A DNA stretch of 39,432 nucleotides. Source: Acidimicrobiaceae bacterium. Its GTDB lineage: Bacteria > Actinomycetota > Acidimicrobiia > Acidimicrobiales > Acidimicrobiaceae. Each line of letters starts with the position of its first letter. Position 1 is the first letter of the stretch. Made by a program: the position numbers and the translations under genes. Location of the stretch: contig JABEUN010000055.1 of NCBI GenBank assembly GCA_013044385.1, forward strand, positions 1 to 39,432, read 5' to 3'. The notes under the pieces are model-generated. The model was not told where the DNA came from, ran no database searches, and was given only the letters and a program-made list of their open reading frames with translations. Shown here piece after piece: positions 28,317-38,015 of this stretch.

Positions 28317-30782
28317 TTATTGCTCCATTCCGACAGCGGGGGTCCGATGACGCCTTGGACGCAACGGTAGAATCAGGAACCCCACGACGATCACCAACGT
28401 TCCGATCGTTATTAAGTCCGAGACCTTCTCCACAGCCGATACGCCGTAATACATGCGGACGTGTGTGGTGGTCGGGACTACGACCATGAGGTTAGGGGAG
28501 ACCCTATAAGGACCAGATGCTCCTTGCACTTTCCAGTCAGGGAAGTAGGAAGTCTTGACGTATACGGGAACACCGACCCGCGAAACGTCGAAAGTGATAG
28601 TCGATGCTGTGGTTTTGATTGCTGAGACAGTATTGCTTGGCAAGGGTATCTCGGGTGCCTTGACAGACTTCGGGGAGACCCGCGGCCAATTCGCAGGTCC
28701 AGACGCCGCACGCAATACTTGCCACTCGGCCGGGTTCTGATACCAAGCCACCGAGCTGTTGAGCCAAGCGACTCTTGAATTCGAATTAGGGCTCAGTACC
28801 GCTGGTAGATACTTCAGCGGAGCCACCTGAGCCGAATTCTTCACTAAGTAGATGTTCCAGACACGGGTATTTGCAATAGACGAAGCAGCCGGTCCAGCTG
28901 GTCCTACCTGCCTTATCAGTTTCAGATTCGGGTCAGAATTCGCCGCCGACACTACTGCTGGGGTATAGGCCATGAAGTAGCGAACCCCAAGCATCTGGAG
29001 GTGCTCTACTCCCAAAGGCACATTGAGTCCGGCATATGGCAATCCCGACATCGCGTCTGACGGTGCAGCTGAGAGTTCAGACTGGTTCAGAAAATGGTAA
29101 GGCGTAGTTGCTGATGACTCGAAGAAAAGCCCCTCCATCGAGTCGATGCAGTTGTTGGTCCAATACGGAAGGAGCATTAAAGCCATTGGGGTACCGAAGG
29201 CATTCTCCTCCGCGTTGTACTCCCACATCGCCCGACCGCATCCGTAGTTGGTTCCGACATTTTTCATCGCAGCCATGATTGCCGAGTACTCGGGCCAAGC
29301 AGCCTTGCCCTCATAGCCGGAGTAGTTCCATTGGACCCAGTCAGGAAGGAAAGATCTAGACACCTTCGCAACAGGTGCCCACTGAGGAGTCCCGAAGTAG
29401 GGAAATGCAATACCAACCACTGCGATAATTGCGACAAGTAGGGTGAACAGTACTCGAAAGATCAACTCGGAGCGACCCGTTATCGTTCCAATCCCAGGCG
29501 GTCCAGAAACGGTGCTCGGCACGTCATGAGAGTAGGAATCGTCGATATCGTCATATGAATAACTTTGACCAACCTGTGTCGGAGGTGCCAGATAAGAACC
29601 AGCACTGGAGGCATCTAAAACACCGCCTCGCAACCCGTCCTCAAGTAACGCGCCACTTGAATACTTCTGCCCTATCAAGGCAAGCTGGGCAGCCCAAACG
29701 ACACTTTTGACCAGTCCATATGCGCCAATTCCGGCGAGGAGATAGATACATAAAGTCCAGAATGGAAGTGCTCTCGCATTATAGATTGCGCTGTTGGGCA
29801 TAATTATGAACGCCAAGGCGCTCAGAACCGCACCCAGTGACAAGGTAATCCCGAACCAACTCTTTTTTGCAATCGACCAGACGACTCCCACGAGTGCAAG
29901 CAGGATCCATGGCATTAGGGTCGTAGGAAGAAGATTGAGGCTGTATTGAGTGACCTTCTCCCATCCCATCGACGATGAGTATTGGAGAAAGGCAGCAAAC
30001 GGTACGATCCAAAACGCGATCACCCCAATGCCTATAACTCCGACGATCGCTAGACGGAGGAATTCCCTGCCATCCCTTCGAACCAATACATAGATCAAGG
30101 CGAAAGCGGCGACGAAGATTGCCGGCAGTATGTGTGCAAGCGCACAGAGTCCATAGAGCACGCCGGCTAGGACCGAGCGGCGCCTGCTACTTAGGCCACG
30201 CATGACCACGGCGACGAAGAAAAGGCCGATAGATAAGGAGAGCGAAAATGAGAACTCCCCTGCAAGCGTGGACGCTATATTTCCGCCGTCAATGGTGTAG
30301 CTGGTATTGAGGAGGTACTCAAGGGAGAAAATTGAGAGAACAGCCGAAAGGGGACTCGACAGACGACCGGCCTTGGCAAGTGCAAAGACGGCAAAGGGCA
30401 ACATCAATGAGCCCGACACGGTAACCAACTTGAACGCCACTCCATAGGAGAGCACGGTGTTCAAGAGTGCTACAAGCAGGCTTGGCAGGGGAAAGTAGAA
30501 TGTGAGGATCGGATATCCGTCGTACCATTGAGGAGACCAGCCAGTAATCCTTAAGTGCGGCAAGAGGTTGTGCTCTACAAAGTAGGGCACCATGAAATGG
30601 GCACCCGTATCGCCACCAGCCGTTGTGGTATTCGCAAATAGTAACTTGGGATCCAGCTGGATAAATACGAATACAGATATCAGAACCGGGACCAGCCACC
30701 ACCAATCGAAGTGGTTATGGACCTCCGCAATTTCTGGATCTCCCTCTACAGCAGAGATCCTTTCCGTCGTCAGAACCGACAC
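28317..30782 (-). CDS. Large multi-pass membrane protein, PTPS-related domain / GT-C-like fold
   Basis: An 821-residue membrane protein. A first helix near residues 28-43 is followed by an acidic loop GDTGAH, then SPQWYDGYPILTFYFPLPS, which resembles the '6-pyruvoyl-tetrahydropterin synthase-related' membrane domain and the catalytic loop region of GT-C glycosyltransferases. About eleven to thirteen hydrophobic helices follow. A long hydrophilic section (about 480-780) contains an RVWNIYLV stretch and is probably extracytoplasmic. A final helix near 788-808 leads to a basic tail. The start is GTG 30782 with AGGGGGG just upstream. Position next to mannose/glucose phosphate enzymes suggests cell-envelope glycan assembly; this is inference. 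Confidence 0.8.
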   Translation of the reverse strand: MSVLTTERISAVEGDPEIAEVHNHFDWWWLVPVLISVFVFIQLDPKLLFANTTTAGGDTGAHFMVPYFVEHNLLPHLRITGWSPQWYDGYPILTFYFPLPSLLVALLNTVLSYGVAFKLVTVSGSLMLPFAVFALAKAGRLSSPLSAVLSIFSLEYLLNTSYTIDGGNIASTLAGEFSFSLSLSIGLFFVAVVMRGLSSRRRSVLAGVLYGLCALAHILPAIFVAAFALIYVLVRRDGREFLRLAIVGVIGIGVIAFWIVPFAAFLQYSSSMGWEKVTQYSLNLLPTTLMPWILLALVGVVWSIAKKSWFGITLSLGAVLSALAFIIMPNSAIYNARALPFWTLCIYLLAGIGAYGLVKSVVWAAQLALIGQKYSSGALLEDGLRGGVLDASSAGSYLAPPTQVGQSYSYDDIDDSYSHDVPSTVSGPPGIGTITGRSELIFRVLFTLLVAIIAVVGIAFPYFGTPQWAPVAKVSRSFLPDWVQWNYSGYEGKAAWPEYSAIMAAMKNVGTNYGCGRAMWEYNAEENAFGTPMALMLLPYWTNNCIDSMEGLFFESSATTPYHFLNQSELSAAPSDAMSGLPYAGLNVPLGVEHLQMLGVRYFMAYTPAVVSAANSDPNLKLIRQVGPAGPAASSIANTRVWNIYLVKNSAQVAPLKYLPAVLSPNSNSRVAWLNSSVAWYQNPAEWQVLRAASGPANWPRVSPKSVKAPEIPLPSNTVSAIKTTASTITFDVSRVGVPVYVKTSYFPDWKVQGASGPYRVSPNLMVVVPTTTHVRMYYGVSAVEKVSDLITIGTLVIVVGFLILPLRPRRHRTPAVGMEQ

Positions 30783-32038: not shown

Positions 32039-32170
32039 TACCTCAAACTAGTTCGATAGCCAACACGCCTAACTGCAAGGCAAATCACAATTCACGCCGA
32101 ACCTTGGACTTTGCTGGGACTATACGTCGATTCAAACGCTTATTTCCTCAGTTCGCCTAGCATTGGCGGA

Positions 32171-34120
32171 ATGAGTCGTCAAGCGCCAGATCTACGCCCG
32201 GGTAAGGCAAGCAAGCCCCAGAGTTCACCAGACCAATCTTGGCGGTGGATTGTTGCAGTACTAGTTATAACACTTGGGGTCGGCCTGCTCTACTCGGTAC
32301 TATTCTCCAAGCCCGCCCAGCAACAGCTGAACTACAACACCTTCCTGAAGGATGTCAATTCTCAGCAGGTGGCCAGTGCAACTGTTGACAATTCGACCGG
32401 CCTGATCACCGGAAACCTCACCAACGGTGCTACCTATTCCGTCTCTGGCCCTCAACCGCTTGTCAGCAGTGATGTTCAGACCCTCGAAAAGGGGGTCCCC
32501 GACCTCAAGTTCATCACGCCACAGCAGGGTCTACTGAATTCGCTCCTCTTTTACCTACTACCGGTTGGACTTTTCCTTGCAGTGTTGATCTGGTTCAACC
32601 GTAGGGCTCAGGGTCAGATGTCTGGCATTATGTCCATCGGAAAGTCGAGAGCCCGCGTATATTCCAGCGAGCGCCCCAAAACAACTTTTGACGATGTTGC
32701 CGGCTACAACTCCGTAAAAAAGGAGATCAAAGAAGTCGTTGACTTCTTGAGGAATCCTGGCCGCTTCAAAGAGATCGGAGCGCATATACCAAAAGGCGTT
32801 CTACTCGTAGGACCTCCCGGAACTGGTAAGACCCTTCTCGCAAGGGCCGTTGCCGGCGAGGCAGGGGTGCCATTCCTATCGGTAAGCGGATCAGACTTCA
32901 TGGAAATGTTCGTTGGTGTGGGTGCCTCACGAGTTCGTGATCTCTTCCAGACCGCTCGCAAGCAGGCTCCGGCCATCATCTTCATCGACGAGATCGACTC
33001 AATCGGAAGAAAGCGTGGGGCCGGCCTTGGTGGCGGTCACGACGAGCGTGAGCAGACACTGAACCAGATGCTCTCCGAAATGGACGGTTTCGATACCGCC
33101 GAGGGAGTCGTGATCATGGCAGCGACCAACCGACCCGACATCCTCGACCCGGCACTGCTGCGGCCTGGTCGGTTCGATCGACAGGTTGTGGTTCCATTGC
33201 CCGACCTTGAGGAGCGCCTGCCGATACTGAAAGTGCACTGCCGAGGCAAGAAGATCGGCGAAGATGTCGATCTTGAGATAGTCGCCCGCGGCACACCTGG
33301 CATGTCGGGTGCCGACCTTGAGAATCTCGTCAACGAAGCCGCTCTCCACGCTGTTCGACGTGGTTCAGCGGAGATCGCAATGGCAGACTTCGAAGCTGCG
33401 CGAGATCGCGTGCTAATGGGACAGAGTCGCGATTCCATGGTGCTGTCGGACGAAGAAAAAGAGAGGGTGGCATACCACGAAGGCGGACACGCGGTGCTTG
33501 CCTATATCCTCCCCTATGCCGACCCAGTTCACAAGGTAACCATCCTTCCTACTGGAATGGCATTAGGGGTCACCCAACAGCTCCCACTTCAAGAGAGGCA
33601 CATCTACCCCCGTGAGTACATCGAGGACAGCCTTGCGGTGAGGATGGGTGGGCGAGTCGCTGAACTCATCATCTATGGTGACCTATCGACTGGTGCGAAC
33701 AACGACCTCGTCGGCAATACCGAACTAGCGCGCAAAATGGTGCGAGAGTGGGGCATGTCAGACCGAATTGGTCCAATGGCATGGGGCTCCCAAGGAATGG
33801 TATTCCTGGGCGAGGACCTGATGCACTCTAGGGACTACTCGGAAGATACCTCAAGGGTGATCGACGAAGAGGTCGAGAGAATTCTTCGAGAGCAGGAGGA
33901 GCGTGCCACCGAACTCCTTGTCCTGCACAAGGAAGGTCTAAAGAAGGTGGCTCACTCTCTTTTGGAGTCGGAGACGGTTGACGGCGCCGCTGTGGGCAGA
34001 ATGATCGACGAGGCATTTGGCAAGCCAGTACACCCGGGTGGCATCAAGCGTGCGATTGTTCCCAGGCTCGACCAAGGCAACGCCTTAGACTCAGACGAAC
34101 TCAATCGGTCTGATCAGTAG
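32171..34120 (+). CDS. ftsH: FtsH, ATP-dependent membrane zinc metalloprotease
   Basis: A membrane-anchored AAA+ protease that degrades misfolded membrane proteins and regulators. Two helices (about 26-45 and 122-141) flank a small extracytoplasmic domain. The AAA module has Walker A GPPGTGKT (214-221), pore-region [11 protein letters not shown], Walker B FIDEID (271-276) and the second region of homology ATNRPDILD...RPGRFDR. The zinc site is HEGGH (436-440). The C-terminus is short. ATG 32171 is preferred (649 residues) over the outer TTG 32111, because the additional residues are not FtsH-like; its ribosome-binding site GGCGGA is weak. It diverges from the CPBP protease gene. Confidence 0.96.
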
Positions 34121-34216
34121 ATCGATTCCGCTCTCGGGGTTGGTCACCGAAAGTCCATCGTGTTGCTCGATTTGGACCACAACAGTTCTGTCACAGGTGC
34201 AGGTAATAGTTAGTGC

Positions 34217-34378
34217 ATGACGGTAAAGCAGTTGCGAATAATCGAGGAATCCAGTGATGGTGCTGAGGTAGTGACCTACAGGAAACTGGATGAACGCACT
34301 CGGCGGATCGGGATCAACGGAGTGAGAAGGGCTAGGGCGGCCATGTACGCTTCCAACTCGGTGGCAAAAGGAGCCTGA
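34217..34378 (+). CDS. Possible small protein, 53 residues
   Basis: The frame runs ATG 34217 to TGA 34376-34378, with an in-frame TAG six bases above the ATG. The product is basic and hydrophilic: a beta-like first half (VKQLRIIEESSDGAEVVTYRKL) followed by an Arg-rich helix-like half (RTRRIGINGVRRARAAMYAS). Codon choice looks like that of neighbouring genes. The ribosome-binding site is poor, with the nearest AGG about 14 bases upstream. No family is recognised. It lies between ftsH and the YdjC-like gene, in the same direction as both. It could be a spurious ORF. Confidence 0.4.
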   Translation: MTVKQLRIIEESSDGAEVVTYRKLDERTRRIGINGVRRARAAMYASNSVAKGA

Positions 34379-34496
34379 GCCGGAAGTTTACTAGAAATCA
34401 ACCAGCCGCATTCCAGACCACTTCGCCTTGAGGCAGATCGACCTAAGATCGAATCAAGCTCGTTAAGAGATCTGATCCTTTACCAGTAGGAGCGGT
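34379..34496. other. Intergenic region upstream of the YdjC-like gene
   Basis: Two copies of AGATCGA separated by four bases lie near 34436-34453, and CAGATC/GATCTG flank the same area. These could be regulator half-sites. No promoter boxes or terminator can be placed with confidence. Confidence 0.25.
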
Positions 34497-35354
34497 GTGT
34501 CAAATTCACGGCTGTTCACTAAAACCAGTTCGCAGGGCGAAGATCGTTCCGTGATACTAACTGTGACCCATCTCGGCTTTTCTAACTCGACAACAATTGG
34601 TTGCTTTGATGCACTCAGGTCCGGATTAGCCACCTCCTCACGCCTAGTAATACCTGGTCCATGGTCTAGGGGTGCTGGCTCTTCGTATCGAGGCGATGAC
34701 GTCGGTATCGACTTAGTCGTCTCATCCGAACATCCTATCTTTGTTATGGCCCCGATCACTTACTCCCCATCCCTAGTCGCGGGACATGGCGGTTTTGCAG
34801 GATCATACGAGGATTTCTGGGAACACGCAGACATAGACGAGACCAAGAGGGAGGTACGGGCCCAGATCGAACGTTCGATCATTTGGGGATTCGACCTAAG
34901 CCATATTGCCTGCTGGAACGATGCCATGATCGGTAGACCTGAATTCTTTGACATCCTGGTTGATCTGGCACTCGAATTCAAGTTACCACTCAAGATCACC
35001 AAAGAGCAGTGTGAAGCAAAGCTGGGCTTCCCTGCTTACGCCCTCGCAGTCGATGCCGGTGTCACCGTTATCGATCACTCCATTGATCTGTGGAGCGGTA
35101 GCTGGGCGAGGATTGCCAACCCGGAAGAGGCACTCGAGGAGGCCGCCTCACAACTTGTAGAGGGAGTAAACGAGATCAGCTTTAGAGTAGCGCCTGACAC
35201 CCGAGAACTCAGAGCGCTTATGTCAGACTGGCCCCGTTACGTATCGTTCCACGGCGTCATCAATCGGGTGACTCAGATCAGGTCAATGTTCGACAAGCTT
35301 GGTATCCGAATTATCGGCTACCGGGAACTGCGTGACAATTGTCGACCACATTGA
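34497..35354 (+). CDS. YdjC/ChbG-family carbohydrate deacetylase homologue with substituted metal ligands
   Basis: The overall sequence follows the YdjC/ChbG/HpnK deacetylase family of actinobacteria: a first strand with GFSNSTTIGCFDAL...GLATSSRLVIPGPW, then GDDVGIDLVV, PSLV..GGF, DFWEHADIDETKREVRAQIER, and a C-terminal IRIIGYRELRD. The residues that bind the metal in active members are changed. The ADD-F/L-G motif reads THLG (24-27), the VGxH histidine is D72, and HLDSH reads HIACWND (136-142). Either it is a pseudoenzyme or it uses a different site. The start is GTG 34497 with AGGAG four bases upstream, giving 285 residues. No sugar-metabolism genes adjoin it. Confidence 0.82.
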   Translation: MSNSRLFTKTSSQGEDRSVILTVTHLGFSNSTTIGCFDALRSGLATSSRLVIPGPWSRGAGSSYRGDDVGIDLVVSSEHPIFVMAPITYSPSLVAGHGGFAGSYEDFWEHADIDETKREVRAQIERSIIWGFDLSHIACWNDAMIGRPEFFDILVDLALEFKLPLKITKEQCEAKLGFPAYALAVDAGVTVIDHSIDLWSGSWARIANPEEALEEAASQLVEGVNEISFRVAPDTRELRALMSDWPRYVSFHGVINRVTQIRSMFDKLGIRIIGYRELRDNCRPH

Positions 35355-36466
35355 ACCTCGGCCCTGAAGTCACGTCGAAGCGGGTGAACCTAGATGAAGC
35401 GGGTTGCTCTCGCTCTGGCTTCCTCAGGACAATTTACGTGAGTCGTCGAACACATTAAGCCACAACGACACATCAATGATCACAAAATGAGCACAATACT
35501 TGCAGCTGCGACCAGTATGAACCTCGTCAACTATCTGGCGGTCGGCCCGTGTCCTGCTGGTCGCCACCTAGTTGTCAGGGTTCGTCAGTCTGCTCAGAAA
35601 CGGCTGATATCCGAGCCAGATAAAAGATGCTCTCCGATCACATAATTGAACTGAGCCAATTGATCCGTAGCGATGAACTCGGCCTCGCTGGGACTGCCGG
35701 TCCAGCCCAGGTCTCTCCAATCACTAAATCCCCTAGATGCCCCAAAAGCGGTTGCAACAGTTGGACCTCATGTTCTACACGACGATCCCACTATCTGACT
35801 CCGCCAGAACACAACAAGGTCGATGCCATTTAGTTCCGAATTGCAATTACAGTTCTCAGAACCGTACACGTGACTGCGCTGGCGTTTAGGTCGTCATTTT
35901 CACAGCTTGGATTCCGGGTCCTCGCCACTCCCACGCCGCTGTACGCCGATAAACTGACGGGACACCGATCTCAAGGGATTCTCATTCTTGCGGTTAGGAG
36001 CCTTAGTGCTCCATTTGCCGCTATCCCGTCTCTGTTTGCCATACCTCGGATCGGTACGCTGTGAGGCTTAGGCGTGCCAAGTGGCAGTGGGAAGGGCCAT
36101 TTTTCATGGAGCCAAATTCGAAACCTGGGCCCTAGTGTCGTCGTTGCGCCTGCTGCGGGCAACTAAATCGACCTTTGGTTCGGCTTCCTCCTAGCTTCGC
36201 CAGTACCAAATAGCACGCGATCAACTTTAATTCATCAGAGATTTAGTCTGAGGTTTCAACACCACATGAGTTGCCACCGTGGCAGCTCCATCCAGATTTT
36301 TAGTCATTCAACTCGGCTAGAACGACCGCTTCGCGTAAGGGCCGATCCACACTCTGTCAGCCCTAGTCACGTGGTTACTGTCTCAAGAGGTCATTTGCCA
36401 CGCGCACAGATCACCGGACTTCCGCCGCCGAAACGACTAAGAACCGAACGCTACCGACGAGCGTTG
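35355..36466. other. 1.1-kb stretch without a recognisable gene
   Basis: This is the longest apparently non-coding stretch of the window. Short frames exist (for example plus strand 35487-35645, 35627-35833, 35870-36064), but none has a ribosome-binding site and a family-like sequence. Visible structure comprises a direct repeat GAAGCGGGT at 35377-35385 and 35396-35404, and a dyad TGCCAC-C-GTGGCA at 36272-36284. It could hold decayed genes or an unrecognised RNA. No tRNA T-loop, RNase P or SRP signature was seen. Confidence 0.4.
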
Positions 36467-36856
36467 TCAAAACTCGGTAAGCTCAGCCAACTTCGTCTCC
36501 AAAGTACGATACTCCGGCGACGAGGTGATTGGAAGTAGCTGGAGAAGCTTGCTCATATCACTACCTGTAACCTTCAGCTTGCCCTGCATAAAGGCTGTAT
36601 TGGCATCAAGTGAACCTGTCTGAATCGATCTAGCGTCTTCGTAGGTCATGGTCATCTGAAGTTCCGCACCTTCTAACTCCCCTAAACCGGCGTCTGACAG
36701 CCTTCCATCCTCCACTACCCAAAAGTACTGTGCGTCACCTTCGGGCCCATCGGTGACCAGATAGTTAATCTTCGCGCCAAGACCGGGCCTCACCGGCATA
36801 TCTCCGCCCAACGCCTTGGTATCGTCTATCCACTCCTGCGACAGCCACTTACCCAT
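36467..36856 (-). CDS. SCP2 sterol-binding domain protein
   Basis: A single-domain 129-residue member of the sterol carrier protein 2 family, which binds lipids or acyl-CoA in a hydrophobic tunnel. Recognisable parts are the central strands (YFWVVEDGRL, LQMTMTYEDARSI) and the helix-plus-strand signature NTAFMQGKLKVTGDMSKLLQLLP-like segment at about 93-115. The ATG at 36856 is preceded by AAGGAG six bases upstream, an excellent ribosome-binding site. Position near an acyl-CoA dehydrogenase is compatible with lipid metabolism. The ligand is unknown. Confidence 0.9.
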   Translation of the reverse strand: MGKWLSQEWIDDTKALGGDMPVRPGLGAKINYLVTDGPEGDAQYFWVVEDGRLSDAGLGELEGAELQMTMTYEDARSIQTGSLDANTAFMQGKLKVTGSDMSKLLQLLPITSSPEYRTLETKLAELTEF

Positions 36857-36946: not shown

Positions 36947-37804
36947 CTATGGCAGGCCAGCAAACAGATCCGTCTCCATGACCGGTTCGTAGTCAGGTAT
37001 TCGAGTCCTAGCCAGCTGAAAGTCTTCGTATGGATACGCAATTCTCTGGTCGTCCGCATCGAGCCCGAACCACCACTTCGAATCTGGTTCAATCTGTGTT
37101 CGGTGAGCTAGCAACGCCTTCAGTCGTCGATCTATGTAAGCACCTACATCGATCGAGGTAGTAATCAGGCTATCCTGTCCCTCTCTTGCCAGCACTTCTT
37201 CAGTAAATGGCGATTCCAAACCGACTTCGACAAAGCGTTGGTGAAGTGCGGTGACCCTTTTGGCCGCCCACAACGAGTAGTAAAGCTTTGACACCGCATG
37301 TGCGGTGCCCAATTCGGGATGGTAGTCGGGATCTGCGGCATAGTTGAAGGCCATTACAGAAATATCGTGGACACGCAGGTGATCAGGATGAGGATACCTC
37401 GACTGATCTTCACCGTAGGTTATAAGTACATCCGGCCTATAGTGCCTGATTAGCGACACCAACTTTCTGGAAGAATCTTCAACATCGACGTTCCAGAATG
37501 CCTCAGGACGAGAATTTGCTTCCGAATCAGGCATGCCCGAATCCCGGTAACCGAGCATCTCCACATCTGTGTAGCCGATGATTGAGGTGGCTTCGGACAG
37601 CTCCTGTGCTCTGACCTTGGCAAGATCGGCCCTCACCTCATCGACATCCATTACGGGATTTATTATGTCGCCTTCCTCGCCTCCCGTCGCGCATACCAGA
37701 ACGGACCTATAGCCCATTGCTGAATAGAGCGCGACCGTACCAGCCCCTTTTGAGGACTCGTCATCGGGGTGTGCATGTACCGTCATCAAGCATCTTCTGC
37801 TCAT
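36947..37804 (-). CDS. mca: Mca-like mycothiol S-conjugate amidase / PIG-L family deacetylase
   Basis: A zinc-dependent amidase or deacetylase of the LmbE/PIG-L family. The N-terminus HAHPDDESSKG contains the zinc and catalytic residues (His, Asp, Asp, Glu) and is the form found in Mca rather than MshB. The third zinc ligand is in YPHPDHLRVH. The C-terminal segment ending ETDLFAGLP also matches Mca. Mca cleaves mycothiol conjugates into a mercapturic acid and GlcN-inositol in detoxification. ATG 37804 is chosen (285 residues) because MSRRCLMTVHAHPDD starts as in the family; the frame is open to TTG 37834. If correct, the organism probably makes mycothiol. A related deacetylase with another substrate cannot be excluded. 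Confidence 0.82.
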   Translation of the reverse strand: MSRRCLMTVHAHPDDESSKGAGTVALYSAMGYRSVLVCATGGEEGDIINPVMDVDEVRADLAKVRAQELSEATSIIGYTDVEMLGYRDSGMPDSEANSRPEAFWNVDVEDSSRKLVSLIRHYRPDVLITYGEDQSRYPHPDHLRVHDISVMAFNYAADPDYHPELGTAHAVSKLYYSLWAAKRVTALHQRFVEVGLESPFTEEVLAREGQDSLITTSIDVGAYIDRRLKALLAHRTQIEPDSKWWFGLDADDQRIAYPYEDFQLARTRIPDYEPVMETDLFAGLP

Positions 37805-38015
37805 CGCTTCTGAGAACCTCTCCAACTCCGTCAACGGGCGATCAACCTGACTGATGGAATGAATCCTGAGCCACTCCAGTCTCCAAGGTCCTTATACAGG
37901 CTAGATCCGGATAAAGGATTCGCACTCGCATGAATGACCACAACTACTTCCAGAGTCGGCGATCCTAGAGTGGGTGCACCAAATTCAAGGCTCTGACATA
38001 TGTGCCAAAAGCTTC

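Follow-up and report, generated by a model that had tools for sequence, protein, structure and literature searches.

A single-copy YdjC-fold gene of Acidimicrobiaceae as a probable pseudo-deacetylase formed in place

Pseudoenzymes usually arise following gene duplication. In Acidimicrobiaceae, a family of acid-loving bacteria, the only copy of a YdjC-type carbohydrate deacetylase gene appears to have been stripped of its chemistry, and this seems to have happened repeatedly in the order, while the gene itself is nearly universal there. The case described here comes from a window of 39,432 nucleotides (contig JABEUN010000055.1 of assembly GCA_013044385.1). Its ydjC gene probably encodes a maintained pseudo-deacetylase that arose at the original locus out of a single-copy enzyme and serves a non-catalytic, probably protein-binding role, a reading to which we give a probability of about 0.6. 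The wider proposal, that a single-copy, order-specific core gene turned into a pseudoenzyme in place, many independent times and unduplicated, is more tentative, its chances falling a little short of even, and it would imply an important ancestral non-catalytic function. If it is true, that function would be the real reason for retention of the gene.

The gene and its replaced active site

The reading frame is intact from a GTG start to the end of a protein of 285 amino acids, and AGGAG, a likely ribosome-binding site, stands before the start, as the preliminary description of the locus had said (Table 1). The protein is a member of the YdjC fold family (PF04794) by both sequence and fold. Its Pfam score is 61 bits against a cut-off of 29.7, with profile positions 9-236 of 266 covered, and it aligns by profile with four YdjC proteins in the PDB; the HMM score is low for the window protein. 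An AlphaFold2 model based on 75 aligned orthologues has a mean pLDDT of 87.7 and a pTM of 0.88, and pLDDT falls below 50 at residues 1-14 only. When the model was compared with the PDB by VIA-align, the best five entries were all YdjC proteins (Z 31.3 to 27.6 across 244-273 residues), and the first non-YdjC match came at Z 16.9. The predicted barrel is intact, and the family match claimed beforehand is borne out by these values.

Table 1. Features of the ydjC locus and of its active site (positions in the window)
Feature	Position	Strand	Basis and remarks
ftsH, ATP-dependent zinc protease, upstream neighbour	32111..34120	+	TIGR01241 785 bits
AGGAG, likely ribosome-binding site	34488..34492	+	direct reading; 4 nt 5' of GTG start
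YdjC-fold gene (probable pseudo-deacetylase), 285 aa	34497..35354	+	PF04794 61 bits; AF2 pLDDT 87.7; Z 31.3 to CmCBDA 8jqe; sole YdjC found in genome
T24-H25 (= ChbG D10-D11, general base and metal ligand)	34566..34571	+	alignment; roles PMC9402603; T24 codon ACC 34566-34568, H25 codon CAT 34569-34571
D72 (= metal ligand H61)	34710..34712	+	alignment; codon GAC
HADxxE/AQxER helix region, H110-A-D112..E115..E119..Q123-x-E125-R126	34824..34874	+	common to active and dead orthologues; model helices
A138-C139-W140 (= D-S-H125; H125 metal ligand)	34908..34916	+	alignment; W140 codon TGG 34914-34916
R230 (= H206, proposed general acid)	35184..35186	+	alignment; codon AGA; role PMC9402603
SCP2-like protein gene, downstream neighbour	36467..36856	-	PF02036; conserved neighbour
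mca, mycothiol conjugate amidase (PIG-L/LmbE family), downstream neighbour	36947..37834	-	TIGR03446 283.9 bits, over cut-off

The full-length fold is shared with the ChbG/YdjC chitooligosaccharide deacetylases (kpChbG 7VI8, TTHB029 2E67, EF3048 2I5I and CmCBDA 8JQE; Z 27.6-31.3), and sequence likeness to them is recognisable. Unlike these enzymes, the window protein lacks D10, D11, H61, H125 and H206, and it has a HAD helix motif typical of its own orthologous group. In ChbG, zinc is bound by D11, H61 and H125, D10 is the proposed base and H206 the proposed acid, and activity was abolished by H61A and likewise by H206A, each introduced singly (PMC9402603). In an alignment of 135 rows, the five residues correspond to Thr24, His25, Asp72, Trp140 and Arg230, so that all five are replaced and neither the ligands nor the base and acid of a ChbG-type deacetylase are present; no canonical ligand was seen displaced elsewhere in the protein. 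The three replaced metal positions (THLG, D72 and ACW, aligned to D10-D11, H61 and D-S-H125) had already been noticed, and the change of the general acid H206 to R230 is a further, fifth loss. Because all five residues are gone and a single alanine substitution at H61 or H206 kills ChbG, the window protein is read as catalytically dead: very probably, it neither binds a catalytic metal nor deacetylates sugars. A second, intact YdjC copy that could compensate was not found in the genome, which is 95% complete. That these genes score as YdjC deacetylases by HMM is no warrant for listing them among active enzymes.

Loss of the site in the family and in the order

The loss is not confined to the window species. 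All 32 orthologues that were examined in Acidimicrobiaceae lack the full site; H61 and H206 are absent from every one, D11 is present in two and H125 in one, and all five residues are gone in 11. A sequencing error or a recent decay of the window gene is rejected, as the site is missing from its congeners and throughout the family. Close relatives with ADD, H and DSH, or canonical ligands elsewhere in the protein, the two findings named beforehand as contrary to a true replacement, were looked for in the orthologues and in the alignment and were not found.

The loss in the family was further compared with the general drift of the protein, using 96 columns with a conservation of 95% or more among full-site orthologues; the full-site rows were themselves defined by the catalytic columns. 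Only 7 of 100,000 random five-column sets were retained as poorly in the family as the five catalytic columns, relatedness among the rows being ignored. The losses thus cluster in the active site, are not evenly spread, and do not reflect chance divergence. The window protein itself retains 66 of the 96 canonical-invariant positions and has lost all five catalytic ones.

On the tree of the order, the full five-residue site is present in 37 of 124 orthologues, a proportion that is not to be read as a population frequency, as rows outside the family were picked for their likeness to an alignment made up largely of dead members. All five residues are present in the five more distant YdjC paralogues that serve as outgroup, and DD, DSH and HP in one copy found in a different order of the class; because these retain catalytic residues, the site was most likely complete in the ancestor. 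In other parts of the order, the orthologues at this locus often retain the five residues. Canonical orthologues of other families (L042, L059, L063, L141), for example, fall in the same orthologous group as the window gene and keep D10, D11, H61, H125 and H206, whereas the window gene does not. More losses are seen outside Acidimicrobiaceae, affecting a single residue (DDHHR) or most of them (AEQHR, NNRYH). By parsimony, 12 or more switches between the full state and an incomplete one are needed for the five residues, and 13 for the three ligands; these counts are undirected and come from a quick tree in which several deep branches have weak support. The resulting natural series within one orthologous group (for example DDHHH, DDHHR, DEHHR, EEQAR, THDWR) offers a way to tell the catalytic and the non-catalytic functions of YdjC proteins apart. 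Two genomes outside the family, G038 (L067, L169) and G047 (L062, L166), combine a partly degraded copy with a second YdjC paralogue that has all five residues; a second paralogue of this type is absent from Acidimicrobiaceae.

CE4/NodB pseudo-deacetylases belong, as far as is known, to multi-gene families, whereas in the window lineage the sole genomic copy appears to have become inactive at its ancestral locus. Those proteins (BA0150 4M1B, BA3943 7BKF and Encephalitozoon 2VYO) also have deacetylase folds without metal-binding or catalytic residues, but they are of a different family, and their structural likeness to the window protein is weaker (Z 11-12). Dead carbohydrate deacetylases thus have a precedent in CE4/NodB (PMC10967932). 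A literature search found no paper covering both Acidimicrobiaceae and YdjC.

A conserved helix region and the possible non-catalytic role

Positions kept in active and dead orthologues alike lie in region 86-131 (P91, G96, H110, D112, E115, E119, Q123, E125 and R126), together with W56, and the model places helices at residues 104-110 and 113-129. Region 86-131 with its HADxxE...AQxER helices is the best candidate for a binding surface, though it may be merely structural. We propose that the ancestral YdjC of the order had a non-catalytic role besides its chemistry, and that the gene would have been kept for this. The role would most likely be that of a dimeric scaffold or regulator gripping a protein partner through the HADxxE...AQxER surface, a suggestion drawn solely from the pattern of conservation. 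In lineages no longer needing the chemistry, the non-catalytic role would have been sufficient alone, and the active site could then have been lost in place, many times, without gene duplication. Dimerisation is known for kpChbG, not for the window protein.

Another role that would not need catalysis is carbohydrate binding, as a lectin or a sensor, with the sugar groove kept and the zinc gone. Dead carbohydrate enzymes can serve as sugar binders, and the barrel fold is intact. However, several canonical residues other than the ligands, which may line the groove, are retained in the family as poorly as the ligands (W84 0.00, Y154 0.00, E78 0.12 and R248 0.16), although the window protein itself retains E78. 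The sugar-binding role raised in the preliminary description is weakened by this drift, and we consider it rather unlikely.

Is a replacement site built?

It is also conceivable that catalysis persists through a rebuilt site with new chemistry. In the window protein, H25 and D72 could each act as a ligand, and it had been suggested that a reciprocal Asp/His exchange might preserve part of a metal site. In sister genus g6 (L036-L041, L089-L096), the three ligand positions are constantly Cys-Glu-Glu, and metal might be bound there. However, the replacements vary by genus, with 17 different ligand triplets among the 32 family rows. Where the window protein has H, D and W, its four congeners carry E/Q, Q and A/S, so that the THLG/D72/ACW pattern is not conserved even in these relatives. 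No column that is conserved in the family yet variable in active orthologues was found, and the canonical signature residues W84, Y154 and R248 drift too. The family conserves no substitute site, which makes a swapped metal site unlikely. The Asp/His exchange is most likely a private coincidence of the window species, and the reciprocal metal site was rejected for this reason. A new enzymatic activity common to the family has no positive support, and persistence of catalysis through sites rebuilt as H25/D72 here and as Cys-Glu-Glu in the sister genus is improbable.

Retention and selection

A search with the single sequence gave no relative; relatives were found by an alignment-based contig search. 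The protein was present in 55 of 60 related genomes, including all 40 of good quality, and Acidimicrobiaceae have one YdjC gene per genome. A profile search of the order found it in 267 of 298 genomes, or 262 of the 292 good ones (about 90%). Among 149 genomes across the phylum, a strong match was obtained in one only, from another order of the class, besides a few weak matches. The contrast between about 90% of the genomes of the order and near-absence elsewhere in the phylum identifies the YdjC gene as lineage-specific and nearly universal.

The ratio dN/dS is 0.03-0.22 in close, unsaturated pairs within the family, and in most of these pairs the adjacent mca has a similar value. The pairs exclude the window gene, for which synonymous sites are saturated against the nearest relative (about 55% identity). 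One ftsH value, for the pair G008-G014, was discarded as an artefact of two ftsH copies with only 260 codons aligned. The ydjC gene of the window species is 52-56% identical to those of its congeners, and mca 60-62%; the slightly lower value for ydjC argues against a recent collapse of the window gene. A homologous fold without catalytic residues and, in the family pairs, purifying selection are both found, as expected of a pseudoenzyme. The view that the gene is maintained as one is well supported by the family-wide loss, low dN/dS, conserved locus and intact fold. A decaying relic kept by inertia on its way to loss would fit the long branches of the family and the low HMM score of the window protein, but it is very unlikely, given that dN/dS lies far below 1, that the frame is open in those family members that were inspected, that all good family genomes have the gene and that the window protein keeps 66 canonical-invariant positions.

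Gene neighbourhood

The gene order in the window is CAAX protease (reverse), ftsH and ydjC (both forward), and the SCP2-like gene and mca (both reverse). An ftsH gene lies upstream of the orthologue in 24 of the 28 family loci with enough sequence, and it is not there in the four congeners of the window species. In genera g4, g5 and g7 (L072, L075, L078-L082, L073-L074), ydjC follows ftsH after 3-18 bp or overlaps it, which suggests co-transcription in these genera. In the window species, the gap is 379 bp (34120-34497), so no operon is evident. From the close spacing in several genera, FtsH might be guessed as the first candidate for the protein partner.

On the other side, 25 of 27 family loci have mca no more than 4 kb downstream, as do 29 of 35 full-site loci from other families, and this shared adjacency supports orthology. 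In most of the order, families with an intact ydjC among them, the SCP2-like gene and mca are found beside ydjC. As both are convergent with ydjC, their position may reflect inherited synteny and no functional link. About 1.1 kb (35355-36466) separates ydjC from the SCP2-like gene in the window, the congener gap being about 225 bp; neither a conserved gene nor an Rfam match was found in this interval, and Rfam and tRNA scans of the whole window were both empty. At 28317-30782 on the reverse strand, a protein of 821 amino acids with multiple membrane spans is encoded; it has no Pfam or NCBIfam match, and its place next to the CAAX protease is conserved in some ten related genomes. Finally, Acidimicrobiia-type copies of the ydjC gene occur in L110, L123 and L151, whose records bear the titles Bifidobacterium breve, Acidobacteria and Acidobacteriota, and these metagenome bins therefore look mislabelled or mixed.
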